From contig JAFLDZ010000005.1 of the NCBI GenBank assembly GCA_017302135.1, positions 148,159 through 212,158 on the forward strand: a stretch of 64,000 bases of DNA, in the 5' to 3' direction. Within the stretch, counting starts at the first letter, position 1. Each line of letters starts with the position of its first letter. This document shows, piece after piece, positions 57,920-63,753 of this stretch. The notes below the pieces were generated by a model, which was not told where the DNA came from, searched no databases, and was given only the letters and a program-made list of their open reading frames with translations. A program made the position numbers and the translations under genes. This DNA is from Lysobacterales bacterium. Its GTDB lineage: Bacteria; Pseudomonadota; Gammaproteobacteria; Xanthomonadales; Xanthomonadaceae.

Positions 57920-58744
57920 TCAGTCCAGGCGGGTGCCGAGGATCGTGCCTTCCGCGCGCATCAGCGCGAGCATCGCCGCGCCGTCGTGGAGGAAACCATC
58001 GAGGTCGGGAGCGCCGGCCTCTGCGGCCAGCGCCAGCAGCTGCTCGCGGCCGCCAAGCGCCGGTTCCGCGTCGAGTCGCTGCAGCAGCCGGAACGAGAGC
58101 GGTGTCAGCGCGTGGAAGCTGACGGCGCCGTCGGCTTCGCGGCGCAGCATGAGCAGGGTCGGCGCTGCGGGCGGCGTATCGGGCCGATAGTCCGGGCCGA
58201 TCCGATGCACCGGCCACGCGTAAGCCAGCGGCCACGCCAGCGGCGAGACCAGCGGGCGGCCTTCGAGCAGATCGCCGTGCGGCTCGTGCGCGATCTCGTC
58301 GTTGCGCGCTTCGCTGATCTGCAGCGCGAGTTCGATCCATTCGTAGTGCGCCAGTTCGCGCAGCCACGGCGGATCGTTGTGTCCGGCATCACGGCTCGCA
58401 TCAGTGCTTGCGCGCGCGTCCAGGTAGCGCAGGAATTCACGCGCCAATTCGGTGAACAGCGGCGTCTGACAGTCGTGATCGCGATAGAACGCGCGGATCA
58501 GCGCCTGCCAGCCATCGTCGCCGTAGAGTCTGCGCAGCACCGGGAAATTGCCGGCCAGCATGCTCTCGACGTTGTTGAAGAACAGGTCGCGATAGATCTT
58601 CAGTCTGCGATCTTCGATGCCGGGCGGCGGCGGTACGCGCTCGGGGTCGCGGATATGCGCGGCGAATGCGTCCTGCTGCGTGGCAAGCGCATCCTGCTGC
58701 GCGGCGAGAATGTCGTTCGATTCAGGCGGCATGGCGCTGGTCAT
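57920..58744 (-). CDS. bufC: DUF2063 family RiPP recognition/partner protein (BufC/HvfC)
   Basis: 274 residues. DUF2063 proteins accompany DUF692 enzymes and act as the recognition partner for the precursor peptide. Residues ~15-110 are the conserved helical DUF2063 core ([38 protein letters not shown]-like segments). The C-terminal part is a second, beta-rich domain. ATG 58744 overlaps the bufB end by 23 bases and has GGAG 10 bases upstream; ATG 58732 is an alternative. It is the third structural gene of the operon. A DoxX gene, often fourth, is absent; rnt follows. Confidence 0.88.
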
Positions 58745-59591
58745 GCGCGGACGCTCCGGCGATGCAACGGCGGACCTGGCCGAGTTCGTCCAGCAGATCC
58801 TCGAACGGCGGCAGGTTGAAATCGCGCTCCAGCAGGGTGGGGCGCGGGCCGAACAGTCCATACGCTTCTTCGAGCAGCGCCCAGACCTGCGCGTTGACCG
58901 CGCTGCCGTGGGTGTCGATCTTCAGGTCTTCGGCTTCGTCGTAGTGGCCGGCAACGTGGATGTACGCCACACGGTCGCCGGGCAGTGCGGCGAGGAATTC
59001 CGAGGGGTCGTAGCGATGGTTGGTGGCGTTGACGATGATGTTGTTCACATCGAGCAGCATCAAGCAGTCCGCTTCGGCGAGCACGGCGTTGATGAAGTCG
59101 ATTTCGCGCATCGGGCGCTGCGCATCGGACACAGGCAGGGTGGCGTAGTACGAGATGTTTTCGATCGCGATCCGCTGCCCGAGGATGTCCTGGGTGCGAC
59201 GGATGCGCGCGGCGACGTGATCCACGGAGGCTTCGCTGAAGGGCAGCGGCAGCAGGTCGTAGAGTTGGCCGCGACTGTCGCCGCAGGCGCTGAGGTGTTC
59301 GCTGTACAGCGGACAGCGGTGCGTCTCCATGAATCTGCGCACCTTGACCAGAAACGTTTCGTCCAGCGCCGCAGGCCCGCCCACCGACAGCGACAGGCCG
59401 TGGCAGATCACCGGATGGCGCGAAGCCAGATCGGCGAAACCATCGCCGAGCGCACCGCCGACGCCGATCCAGTTCTCCGGTGCGGTTTCGAGAAAATCGA
59501 AGCTGCCGACGGCGGCGCTGCGCATCGCCGCCAGCAGCGGGCGGCGCAGACCGAGACCGGCGGCATGGGGCGGGAGAAGAAAAGCTGTCAT
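58722..59591 (-). CDS. bufB: DUF692 (MNIO) multinuclear iron RiPP-modifying enzyme (BufB/HvfB)
   Basis: 289 residues, TIM-barrel DUF692 family, relatives of MbnB. The expected iron ligands are all present: H64 ([10 protein letters not shown]), E98/H99 (SEHL), E144 (IENISY), D181 (DVNNI), H212 and H216 (HVAGHY), D226 and H228 (DTHG), E255 (LERDFN). It should oxidise cysteines of the precursor encoded just upstream; for HvfB the known product is an oxazolone/thioamide at EGKCG cysteines. No good ribosome-binding site precedes ATG 59591. Confidence 0.92.
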
Positions 59592-59712
59592 CGGTTGAAC
59601 CGTGGCTGGTGAGGCATTGCAGGGCTCAAAGCCGAGCCCGAAACGCAGGACGGCCGCAGTCTGCGGCCGCCCTGAAGCGAAGGCCGTCGTCAGCGACGAC
59701 GGCGGGATCGCA

Positions 59713-60255
59713 TTACATATTGCCGCCGCACTTGCCCTCACCGCACTTGCCTTCTGCCGCCTTCTTGTCTGCGCCGGCAGCGGCAGCCGGCTTGTTGCCG
59801 CCGCACTTGCCTTCACCGCATTTGCCTTCACCGCACTTGCCTTCAGCTGCGGCCTTGTGTTCGCCGCCGCACTTGCCTTCGTGGGCTGCCTTCATTTCCG
59901 CGGCGGTGATGTAGCCGTCTTTGTTGCCGTCGTGGGAGGCGAATTTGTCGTCCTTGCCACCATGGGCGGCGGCGAACTCGGCGCGGGAAAGCTTGCCGTC
60001 CTTGTCGGTGTCCATCATGGCCATACCGCAGGAGCCCTCTGCTGACTTGGCGCCGCCACATTTGCCTTCTGTGGGTTTGTCGCCGCCGCACTTGCCTTCA
60101 CCGCATTTGCCTTCGGCCGCTTTTTCGCCGGTGGAGGCGCCGAGCAGATAGCCCTGCGTCAGGTGGGTCGAAGCGAATGCGGACGCGGACAACAACAGGC
60201 CGCTGGCAAGAACAGCGGAAACGGCGATCGCGACGGGCTTTTTGGTCGTGGACAT
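59713..60255 (-). CDS. bufA: EF-hand-containing bufferin/HvfA-type RiPP metallophore precursor
   Basis: 180 residues. The signal peptide is cleaved near AFA28, so the product is periplasmic or released. Ten cysteines (51, 56, 66, 77, 129, 141, 146, 151, 171, 176) lie in nine EGKCG motifs and one EGSCG. Between the two Cys blocks are two perfect EF-hand loops: D82[11 protein letters not shown]93 and D109[11 protein letters not shown]120. EGKCG is the motif modified to Cu-binding oxazolone/thioamide in Haemophilus HvfA. The Cys motifs are encoded by near-identical 15-base units, so copy number may vary by slippage. AGGAGA precedes the ATG; bufB and bufC follow. Confidence 0.9.
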
Positions 60256-60312
60256 CGGGTTGAATCTCCTGGGGATAGGGTCGGGATGAGGGGCGGGGGT
60301 GGGGAGCGAATC

Positions 60313-60873
60313 CTAGCGTGGAACTGCAACTGCCTGCATCTGCAGCGATGGTTGCGGTGCGAGATATTGTCTGGCGAGGCTGCGCGCGCGATGCAGTCGT
60401 GCCTTGGCGGCTTCCGGGTGCAGCGACAGCGCCGCCGCGATCTCACCGATGGTGTGGCCTTCGAGATCGCGCAACAGGACGATCTCGCGGTAATGGGCGG
60501 GCAGAGCGGCGAGCGCCTGGGCCACATCGCGGATCAGTCCGGTCGGGGCCGGGTAGTGCGGGCCGTCGATTTCTTCCAGATCGGTCGGCTGCATGAGCAG
60601 ATAGCGTGTAGCGCGTTTCAAACGGTTGCATTCGCGCTTGACGATCCGGAACAGCCACGAGTTGTAGGCGTCGAGTTCGCGCAGTGCCTTGAGCTTGCGC
60701 GAGATCAGCAGCAGGCTTTCCTGCACGGCGTCTTCGATGTCGTTGATCCCGCAGTGATATTCGGCGTAGCGGCGCAGATCCTGACGCGAACGCATCAGCA
60801 CTCTTTCGAGCGCACGAAGGTCCCCGTCACGGGCGGCGGCGAGCGAATCATGGAATGTGGGGTCCTGTTGCAA
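60313..60873 (-). CDS. ECF-type RNA polymerase sigma factor
   Basis: 186 residues from TTG 60873; the start is decided by AAAGGAG at 7 bases, and there is no ATG until residue 27. Region 2 (~25-90, DIEDAVQESLLLISRKL, YNSWLFRIVKREC) and region 4 (~115-165, LPAHYREIVLLRDLEGHTIGEIAAALS) are clear. It precedes bufA by 57 bases on the same strand and probably controls the buf operon in response to metal. No anti-sigma factor gene is adjacent. The 240-base gap to arsR holds the promoters of both operons. Confidence 0.9.
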   Translation of the reverse strand: MQQDPTFHDSLAAARDGDLRALERVLMRSRQDLRRYAEYHCGINDIEDAVQESLLLISRKLKALRELDAYNSWLFRIVKRECNRLKRATRYLLMQPTDLEEIDGPHYPAPTGLIRDVAQALAALPAHYREIVLLRDLEGHTIGEIAAALSLHPEAAKARLHRARSLARQYLAPQPSLQMQAVAVPR

Positions 60874-61089
60874 CGGTGTCTCCTTTCGGGGTTCCGCAAT
60901 CTACGCGTTGCGGCGTCTGCGGTTGTGCATAAAGAGTTAGGCGGGGATCGGTCAGGTGCGTCGCAGGGGCGCTCATTGCTGGCGCGATTCAGACTTCGTT
61001 TATGTACCGTTCTCCGGGCGCTGGAACGGACTTCACGACGAATCAAGCGGAGTGGCGTGGAAAACTGTCATCTTTGGCCGATAATATTT

Positions 61090-61113: not shown

Positions 61114-61458
61114 ATGGAAATCAAGCAAGCCACTGCCGCGCTCGCCGCCCTCGGCCAGTCCACCCGCCTGTCCGTGTTCCGCTGTCTGGTCCAGGCCGGC
61201 CCGGAAGGGCGCATGCCGGGCGAGATCGCCGAAACCCTGTCGCTCGCCGGAGCCACGCTGTCCTTCCATCTCAAGGAGTTGGCGGCGGCCGGGCTGGTCC
61301 AGGCCGAACCCCGCGGCCGCTTCATCTGTTATCGCGCCGATTTCGACGCCATGCGCGCGCTGCTCGGATTCCTGACCGAAAACTGCTGCGGCGGCAATCC
61401 CGACGCCTGCGCGCCGATGGCCTGCGGCCCGGCCGACACCACGAAGGGCGGGCGGTGA
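61114..61458 (+). CDS. arsR: ArsR-family arsenic-responsive repressor
   Basis: 114 residues. The winged helix (LGQSTRLSVFRCLVQ, GATLSFHLKELAAAGLV) is followed by a C-terminal Cys cluster C91 C92 ... C99 ... C104 (ENCCGGNPDACAPMAC), a likely As(III) site, as in the ArsR type that precedes GAPDH-arsJ. ATG 61114 comes after a palindrome. The gene opens the operon arsR-GAPDH-arsJ. Confidence 0.92.
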   Translation: MEIKQATAALAALGQSTRLSVFRCLVQAGPEGRMPGEIAETLSLAGATLSFHLKELAAAGLVQAEPRGRFICYRADFDAMRALLGFLTENCCGGNPDACAPMACGPADTTKGGR

Positions 61459-61518
61459 GCGGCTCAGCCGATCCGACCGGCCGCACACATCATTCCTCCC
61501 TGAACGAGACGAACGAGT

Positions 61519-62526
61519 ATGACGATCCGCATCGGTATCAACGGTTTCGGCCGCATGGGCCGGCTCACCCTGCGCGCGGCCTGGGGCGATCCCGACCTGC
61601 GCTTCGTGCGCATCAACGACCCGGCGGGCGACCCGGCCACGCTGGCGCATCTGCTGATGTTCGATTCGATCCACGGCCGCTGGGATCGTGAAGTCGCCAC
61701 CGATGGCGATGCCCTGGTGATCGACGGCCAGCGCATCGCGGTCACGCGCAACAAGGAGCTGGCCGCCACCGACTGGTCCGACTGCGATGTGGCGATCGAA
61801 GCCTCGGGCAAGTTCCGCAAGCCCGATGTGCTGCAGCCGTATCTCGACCAGGGCGTGAAGCGGGTGGTCGTCACCGCGCCGGTCAAATCCGCAGGCGCGC
61901 TCGATGTGGTGGTCGGCGTGAATCACGGCCGTTTCGATCCCACGCGGCATCGCATCGTCTCGGCGGCATCGTGCACCACCAACTGTCTCGCGCCGGTGGT
62001 GAAGGTGATCCACGAAGGCATCGGCATCCGTCACGGCAGCCTGACCACGATCCACAGCCTGACCAATACCCAGGTGATCGTCGATGCGCCGCACAAGGAT
62101 CTGCGCCGCGCGCGCGCCTGCGGCAGCAGTCTGATTCCGACCTCCACCGGCTCCGCGACCGCGATCGCCGAAATCTTTCCGGAATTGCGCGGCCGCCTCG
62201 ACGGTCATGCGGTGCGCGTGCCGCTGACCAATGCTTCGCTGACCGACTGCGTGTTCGAGGTCGAACGCGCCACCACGGTCGATGAAGTCAATGCACTCCT
62301 GCGTACCGCTGCAGAAGGCGAACTGAAGGGCATTCTCGGCTACGAGCCCCGGCCGCTGGTGTCGATCGATTTCCTGCACGACCCGCGCTCCGGCATCGTC
62401 GATGCGCTGTCGACGATGGTCGTCAACGGCACCCAGGTGAAGATCTACGCCTGGTACGACAACGAATGGGGCTATGTGAATCGAACGGCCGAACTGGTGC
62501 GCATCGTCGGCGCTGCGGACCGGTAA
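61519..62526 (+). CDS. ArsJ-associated glyceraldehyde-3-phosphate dehydrogenase
   Basis: 335 residues. The NAD loop [10 protein letters not shown] (6-15), the catalytic C152 in [10 protein letters not shown], and the C-terminal [11 protein letters not shown] are seen. In this operon type the enzyme uses arsenate in place of phosphate to form 1-arseno-3-phosphoglycerate, which ArsJ exports. It lies 60 bases after arsR and 6 bases before arsJ. It is divergent from glycolytic GapA ([14 protein letters not shown]), supporting the specialised role. Confidence 0.94.
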
Positions 62527-62532
62527 GCGACG

Positions 62533-63753
62533 ATGTGGTCGCGGCTTTCCGATGATGTCCGGCAGTATCTGCTGATCACCGGCAACTACTGGGCGTTCAC
62601 GCTGACCGACGGCGCGCTGCGGATGCTGGTGGTGCTGCATTTCCACCAGCTCGGCTACACCCCGCTGCAGGTGGCGTCGCTGTTCCTGTTCTATGAAGTG
62701 TTCGGCGTGGTCACCAATCTGTTCGGCGGCTGGCTTGGCGCGCGCATCGGGCTCAATCGCACCATGAACATCGGTCTGGCGCTGCAGGTCGGTGCGCTGG
62801 CGATGCTGATGGTGCCGGCATCGTGGCTGGTCGTGCCGTGGGTGATGGCGGCGCAGGCGCTGTCGGGGATCGCCAAGGACCTCAACAAGATGAGCGCGAA
62901 AAGCAGCATCAAGCTGCTGGTGCCCGACGATCGCCAGGGCGCGCTGTATCGGTGGATCGCAGCGCTGACCGGCTCGAAGAACGCGCTCAAGGGCGTCGGT
63001 TTTTTCCTCGGCGGTGCGTTGCTGACCACGGTCGGGTTCACCAAGGCAATCGCGATCATGGCCGTCGCGCTGCTGCTGGTGTGGATATCGAGTCTGGTCC
63101 TGCTTCGCCGCGATCTGGGCAAAGCCAAGGCCAAGCCGAAGTTCCGCGACATGCTGTCGAAGAGTCGCGCGATCAATCTGCTCTCGGGTGCGCGGATGTT
63201 CCTGTTCGCGTCCCGCGATGTCTGGTTCGTGGTCGCGCTGCCGGTGTTCCTCGCGCAGACCCTGGGCTGGGATTTCTGGAAGGTCGGCGGATTTCTCGCT
63301 GCCTGGGTGATCGGCTACGGCATCGTGCAGTCGCTGGCGCCGTACATCACCGGCCGTCGCAGCGGTCGCGTGCCGGATGGCCGTTCGGCATTCGTGTGGG
63401 CGCTGTCGCTGGCTGGAATTCCCGCGCTGATGGCCGCGCTGTTGATCGGCGGCATGTCGCCGGCGGCCGTGCTGATTGCTGGTCTGAGCCTGTTCGGCGT
63501 GCTGTTCGCGATCAATTCGTCGCTGCACAGCTATCTCATCGTCAGCTACGCGGCCGAGGACGGCGTGTCGCTCGATGTCGGTTTCTACTACATGGCCAAT
63601 GCGCTCGGTCGCTTGTTCGGCACGCTGCTGTCGGGCTGGCTGTTCCAAGCGTACGGTATCGCGACCTGTCTTGCGGTGTCGTCGGCGCTGATCGTGTTGG
63701 CCGCGCTGGTCTCGATCGCGCTGCCCAGACATGCGCGGGTTGCAGTCATCTGA
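62533..63753 (+). CDS. arsJ: Organoarsenical efflux MFS transporter ArsJ
   Basis: 406 residues, a major-facilitator protein with about 11-12 membrane helices. It exports 1-arseno-3-phosphoglycerate, which then falls apart outside the cell. The family-specific core AQALSGIAKDLNKMSAKSS and the SGARMFLFASRDVWFVVALP segment are seen, distinct from sugar or drug MFS proteins. It is last in the operon; a strong hairpin follows, and phoU converges on it. Confidence 0.94.
   Translation: MWSRLSDDVRQYLLITGNYWAFTLTDGALRMLVVLHFHQLGYTPLQVASLFLFYEVFGVVTNLFGGWLGARIGLNRTMNIGLALQVGALAMLMVPASWLVVPWVMAAQALSGIAKDLNKMSAKSSIKLLVPDDRQGALYRWIAALTGSKNALKGVGFFLGGALLTTVGFTKAIAIMAVALLLVWISSLVLLRRDLGKAKAKPKFRDMLSKSRAINLLSGARMFLFASRDVWFVVALPVFLAQTLGWDFWKVGGFLAAWVIGYGIVQSLAPYITGRRSGRVPDGRSAFVWALSLAGIPALMAALLIGGMSPAAVLIAGLSLFGVLFAINSSLHSYLIVSYAAEDGVSLDVGFYYMANALGRLFGTLLSGWLFQAYGIATCLAVSSALIVLAALVSIALPRHARVAVI

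Follow-up and report, generated by a model that had tools for sequence, protein, structure and literature searches.

The window, as we call the whole stretch of 64,000 nucleotides analysed here, carries a single operon on its minus strand that encodes an ECF sigma factor, a RiPP precursor, an HvfB-type DUF692/MNIO enzyme and an HvfC partner. When the ORF coordinates were re-read, all four tandem minus-strand genes of the original prediction were found where it had placed them. The first gene (60313..60873; this and all following features lie on the minus strand unless marked otherwise) encodes the sigma factor with sigma-70 regions 2 and 4 (Pfam Sigma70_r4_2, 2e-14; TIGR02937 over its cut-off), and starts with a TTG at 60873 with AGGAG in front; its nearest relative has a GTG at the same place. 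It is followed by the gene of the precursor, an HvfA/EGKCG-type protein of 180 aa (59713..60255), and by the MNIO gene (58722..59591), which starts with an ATG at 59591. The last gene (57920..58744) encodes the HvfC-type partner, a DUF2063 and NGO1945_C protein of the RRE-type substrate-binding kind with 3DEE as a relative in the PDB. Its ATG start at 58744 gives a 23-nt overlap with the MNIO stop, and a longer start of the same ORF at 58861 is not likely to be the one used. Between the precursor stop and the MNIO gene lie two strong GC hairpins (59646..59703), and about a dozen relatives have similar ones 3' of their precursor stop; they are possibly an attenuator or a 3'-end stabiliser yielding more precursor than enzyme.

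Family assignment of the operon

By curated models the locus is of the HvfABC/oxazolin-fontiphorin ("captophorin") type, with bufferin proper rejected. The MNIO matches PF05114 (3.8e-94) and exceeds the cut-off of the 'HvfB family' model PRK05409 (392.9 against 360), and it scores 250 bits with MNIO_BufB, under the cut-off of 310. Its iron-site motifs, including LDVNN, DTH and LLERDFN, align with those of 3BWW, a close HvfB relative, and are consistent with N175, D242 and H244, the residues that HvfB activity requires (PMC13419390); the iron ligands claimed for the DUF692 enzyme are thus retained. The proposed DUF2063 partner was equally borne out by the RiPP_RRE_HvfC model (NF050145, 302.5 bits against 142) and by matches to PF09836 and PF22106. 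For the precursor, the NCBIfam KCGExKCG domain NF050137 gives 62.3 bits (cut-off 19.5), and the full-length HvfA equivalog NF050188 gives 47.5, under its cut-off of 95. Because the HvfA-type domain, HvfB and HvfC all score over their cut-offs and BufB is missed, the operon belongs to the EGKCG/HvfABC branch and not to bufferin 1/2, the precursor also having no DUF2282 match in Pfam. Methanobactin membership was ruled out by model scores. Of the earlier proposal of a RiPP copper-handling operon, the family membership stands, as an EGKCG precursor with HvfBC/FonBC, and the bufABC naming was imprecise.

EGKCG precursors that come with HvfBC/FonBC have 5-thiooxazoles installed, and they bind Cu (PMC13097082, PMC13419390). 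Both properties have been shown for fontiphorin, oxazolin and gonophorin (PMC13097082), where two modified repeats weigh 8 Da less, a loss that would amount to about 40 Da for the ten motifs of the window's precursor. In addition, the HvfA signal peptide serves as the leader, HvfC being required (PMC13419390). The HvfABC/oxazolin system of Haemophilus and the FonABC/fontiphorin system resemble the window's locus in their EGKCG Sec precursor, HvfB-type MNIO, HvfC-type partner and predicted 5-thiooxazole (PMC13097082), however, EF hands and a cis-encoded ECF sigma factor have not been described for them.

The genome from which the window derives also contains a second, divergent MNIO (L266, contig C8:3473-4306; 134 bits). 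Its neighbours, named from reading of the sequence, are a short Lys/Ala-rich leader peptide ending in ...GSGWLYD and a cytochrome P450-like ORF, and no DUF2063 partner was found at that locus, which is possibly a macrocyclic-RiPP cluster.

The precursor and its EF-hand pair

The precursor begins with a Sec signal peptide (~aa 1-28) and a conserved L-x2-GY motif (aa 32-36), the GY of which, just past the signal peptide, is invariant among 30 aligned proteins of the same layout. The remainder consists of an N-terminal block of four Cys motifs, EGKCG three times and EGSCG once (aa 48-77; 60025..60114), the EF pair, and a C-terminal block of six EGKCG (aa 126-177; 59725..59880). The nine EGKCG and one EGSCG originally counted in the secreted protein agree exactly with our count; all ten Cys of the precursor lie within these motifs, and shuffled versions of it contain a mean of 0.006 EGKCG against nine in the real protein.

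EF-hand loop 1 (aa 82-93; 59977..60012) was recognised by Pfam EF-hand_1/5/7, and loop 2 (aa 109-120; 59896..59931) likewise by Pfam. Both are located between the fourth and fifth Cys motif, an arrangement referred to below as nested, and carry full D1/3/5-G6-E12 ligand sets, and the region scores over the Pfam cut-offs for EF-hand_1, _5, _6 and _7, so the two canonical loops suggested between the Cys blocks are confirmed at the level of sequence. In an alignment of 30 nested homologues, neither loop varies at D1, G6 or E12. Between the window and its nearest relative the EF block shows dN 0.064 and dS 0.52; for distant pairs dN/dS carries no information, dS being compressed among these GC-rich sequences.

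Calmodulin loops start 36 residues apart. The corresponding spacing in the precursors is shorter, 27 residues in 27 of the 33 nested cases and in 10 of the 12 cases with a C-terminal pair. The Cys nearest upstream of D1 of loop 1 lies six residues away in 24/33 nested proteins and nine residues away in all 12 C-terminal ones, and the next Cys follows nine residues past E12 of loop 2 in 17/33 nested proteins. Since Cys motifs thus stand at a short fixed distance from the loops, the two arms abut the EF module. The AlphaFold2 model, built from a 30-row alignment, is confident for the EF pair (aa ~78-125, pLDDT ~94), with the Cys blocks and the signal peptide of low confidence or disordered; the helix ahead of loop 1 has only about one turn, as the EGKCG motif lies right against it. 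A fold search of the PDB with the whole model gave generic EF-hand proteins as its best matches, and these are weak, with E-values of 0.02 and up.

Considering the intact, conserved loops together with EfhP, a homologue combining EGKCG with EF hands, Ca2+ binding is a well supported prediction for the pair, and the loops can in principle take other hard cations. EfhP, a relative with a C-terminal EF pair, binds Ca2+ at 13.7 µM with a structural change (PMC9132961). Lanmodulin is comparable in being a compact bacterial periplasmic EF-hand protein, however, the sequence match is weak (E 0.02), and the window's precursor has no Pro at loop position 2, only two loops, and Cys blocks. With NCBIfam LanM at 18.9 against a cut-off of 135, a lanmodulin-like lanthanide binder was rejected.

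Distribution of layouts and the operon-linked sigma factor

NF050137 matches were found in 72 of 119 genomes of the window's family (Lysobacteraceae), 95 of 151 of the order and 43 of 398 of the phylum. Counting EF loops between Cys blocks among the MNIO-associated precursors, 33 of 119 loci were nested, 12 had a C-terminal pair and 74 had none, one further Cys-only locus with an N-masked precursor being omitted. As these layout classes were assigned by a regex that favours canonical loops, the Cys-only proteins of the family were also inspected by eye, and no decayed EF region was seen in them. The nested form comprises 31 loci in Lysobacteraceae and two in a sister family of the same order (f2), and is restricted, in the sampled loci, to Lysobacteraceae and this one sister family, with Tahibacter as a named example; EF hands are missing from all 20 loci of the order's other families. 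The C-terminal form comprises nine loci in the window's family and three in a single further gammaproteobacterial family (f7), which, given the likeness to EfhP, is presumably Pseudomonadaceae. Named records with nested precursors, which overlap the main locus sample and are not to be added to it, belong to Lysobacter, Luteimonas, Pseudoxanthomonas, Thermomonas, Vulcaniibacterium, Chiayiivirga and Tahibacter, the upstream Cys motif of Thermomonas not being in strict form.

Every nested member retains both ligand sets, and the sampled Lysobacteraceae have either an intact nested pair or none, a half-decayed pair not having been seen; two C-terminal members (L046 and L066) have a loop 1 without Gly6. 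On a tree of 111 MNIOs with SH-aLRT support only, the nested trait requires no fewer than 11 changes, compared with 28.7 when the labels are shuffled, and most nested loci fall into one MNIO clade of 42 that includes 13 Cys-only members. From these sequences, the pattern is consistent with an old acquisition of the EF pair followed by repeated loss, repeated gain being an alternative. The EF pair is missing from several Lysobacteraceae loci whose MNIOs are closely related, and therefore the module is dispensable for the core chemistry.

Two loci have unusual precursors. At one (L271, G023:C213) a complete EF pair is accompanied by a single remaining EGKCG beside an MNIO, an HvfC and a broken-looking sigma gene, which may represent an EF module outlasting its Cys motifs. 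The other, a protein from a Flavobacteriales MAG (L204, 3635-4249), has two EGKCG-like Cys motifs after four EF-hand-like loops, and its locus contains neither an MNIO nor an HvfC homologue.

A homologue of the sigma factor (E <= 1e-25) is present in 33 of the 119 family genomes, in single copy each, and lies directly upstream of an EGKCG/EF precursor in 30 of these, as read from listed coordinates for most genomes; it does not in G068, in G095 and on a small G007 contig. Within the window's family it partners 12 nested loci, nine Cys-only loci and none of the nine with a C-terminal EF pair. Judged by genome comparison, the sigma factor is a lineage-specific partner that tracks the locus. Upstream of its gene lies a direct repeat, TAAAC-N6-TGAAT (60986..61002), with an 11-bp period, which is a putative regulator box. 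Of 21 sigma genes, 14 have the pattern STRAAY-N5-STGAAY upstream with a score of at least 11/12 (0.19 expected), and the same box lies upstream of five of 98 sigma-less precursors; in one pattern search the exact 17-mer of the window was unique in its own genome, and two sites appeared when one mismatch was allowed. The spacing resembles that of response-regulator boxes. By eye, no ECF-type -35/-10 promoter was recognised upstream of the sigma gene.

ECF regulation of such operons has precedents. Bufferin 1 of Caulobacter with SigF-NrsF (CC3252-CC3257, PMC3511200) similarly links an ECF sigma factor to a precursor-MNIO-DUF2063 set and responds to heavy metals, but its DUF2282 precursor, 6-TM NrsF anti-sigma and DoxX have no counterparts found at the window's locus. 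Around 21 sigma genes, no same-strand ORF with four or more TM segments was found within 1.5 kb, antisense shadow ORFs being the only ones; a SigF-NrsF-type system was hence rejected for want of an NrsF-like membrane ORF beside these genes, and an anti-sigma may be soluble or encoded elsewhere. The doxX operon of Haemophilus, presumably the hvf operon, is controlled by RpoE2, which is encoded elsewhere (PMC7907618).

Some neighbourhoods are worth recording. Divergent from the operon, on the plus strand at 61114-63753, lies an arsenate-resistance operon with an ArsR/SmtB regulator, an ArsJ-associated GAPDH and an ArsJ efflux MFS, all over NCBIfam cut-offs. In several genera the EGKCG operon is located directly 3' of phoU (L055 5400-9001; also L042, L043, L087 and L161), in some without the sigma gene; the order at L055 is pstC-pstA-pstB-phoU, the gene names coming from reading of the sequence. 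In another family, a different, weakly similar ECF sigma gene stands divergently right upstream of an EGKCG precursor (L142, 4940-5527), hinting at an independent recruitment of ECF regulation.

Fusions of EGKCG and EF hands as such are already published (PMC12452194; EfhP of Pseudomonas). The main text of Leprevost 2025 describes second-type EGKCG precursors as a short EGKCG domain with two EF-hand_5 at its C-terminus, and suggests a role in Ca2+ homeostasis for the chimaeras, citing EfhP; it reports sigma factors for Buf1, not Buf2, and lists none for EGKCG clusters (PMC12452194). These Buf_EGKC/EF-hand_5 chimaeras, including those of the EfhP/PA4107 type, share with the window's precursor the signal peptide, EGKCG, two EF loops 27 apart and an operon with MNIO and PME1/HvfC. 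As described there, however, the pair is C-terminal to one short EGKCG domain, and six EGKCG following the pair set the window's precursor apart. It differs further from this EfhP-like group in the upstream Cys lying six and not nine residues from loop 1, in the conserved C-terminal tail, which nested proteins do not have, and in the cis ECF sigma factor at the locus. As we read it, the nested arrangement and the cis-encoded ECF sigma factor are both new, being undescribed in the main text of PMC12452194, and are found lineage-wide.

Calcium and copper in the nested precursor

We consider it likely, with a probability of roughly 0.6, that the locus is an EGKCG-type RiPP operon for copper chelation, equipped with an ECF sigma factor of its own, and that the EF pair in mid-precursor serves as a periplasmic anchor folded by Ca2+. 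Following the homologous systems, the precursor would be made with a Sec signal peptide doubling as leader and be recruited by HvfC, HvfB would turn the EGKCG cysteines into 5-thiooxazoles in the cytoplasm, and the product would be exported by Sec and then bind Cu; all ten motifs may be modified. Free Ca2+ in the cytoplasm would be far under the ~10 µM range of such EF pairs, and therefore the module would presumably carry no Ca2+ and remain flexible while the chain is modified and passes through Sec. Both loops would take up Ca2+ once they reach the periplasm, which is rich in it, and would fold into a stable anchor; the two thiooxazole arms, disordered apart from this, would leave the anchor near one another. 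Under envelope, oxidative or metal stress the ECF sigma factor probably raises operon expression, and the hairpins would fit a precursor output greater than that of the enzyme.

Other roles of the pair need to be weighed. A periplasmic sensor of Ca2+ and Cu (or Fe), in which Ca2+ uncovers a hydrophobic surface for signalling to a membrane partner and the thiooxazoles act as a second, metal-sensing input, seems unlikely to us, even though the pair is conserved and EfhP changes its structure in response to Ca2+ and displays surface hydrophobicity and phenotypes in gene expression (PMC9132961, PMC11559002). The calcium-signalling phenotypes of EfhP mutants leave room for a sensor or partner-binding role, and dual Ca/Fe (metal) sensing was raised for EfhP in 2024 from its four EGKCG repeats (PMC11559002). 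Periplasmic Ca2+ is, however, usually well above the Kd of EfhP, and therefore the site would be saturated; moreover, the conserved tail of the EfhP-like group is missing from nested proteins, and up to 10 metal-binding Cys motifs suit capacity more than sensing. The bifunctional Ca/Cu switch of the original prediction, a true gate in which the copper sites would open or close depending on whether Ca2+ is bound, could draw on the fixed short spacing of Cys and loops (six before loop 1 in 24/33, nine after loop 2 in 17/33), yet most Cys motifs lie far from the loops in segments predicted disordered and closely related operons lacking the EF pair have the same enzymes, which leaves it plausible but improbable. 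A constitutive folding or anchoring role in the periplasm fits the numbers better than a dynamic gate.

It is just as improbable that the EF pair is a mere spacer or solubility module with incidental Ca2+ binding. Its repeated loss or gain within one clade would suit such a part, but D1, G6 and E12 of both loops are invariant across the aligned nested set, the pair is either intact or absent, and L271 retains it with a single EGKCG. A calcium-latched metallophore, whose chain would be held open by the EF pair for the work of the MNIO and for Sec until periplasmic Ca2+ folds the pair and joins the arms into a cooperative copper site, is a further proposal that we put forward only tentatively; if it were true, the entry of Ca2+ would be the maturation switch of a RiPP.

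Thousands of MNIO operons yield peptides whose roles past copper are unsettled. Cys-flanked EF pairs occurring lineage-wide beside close relatives that have none constitute a natural experiment on the effect of Ca2+ on a thiooxazole metallophore, and the single-copy, operon-linked ECF sigma factor with its conserved upstream box provides a way in to the natural inducing signal.
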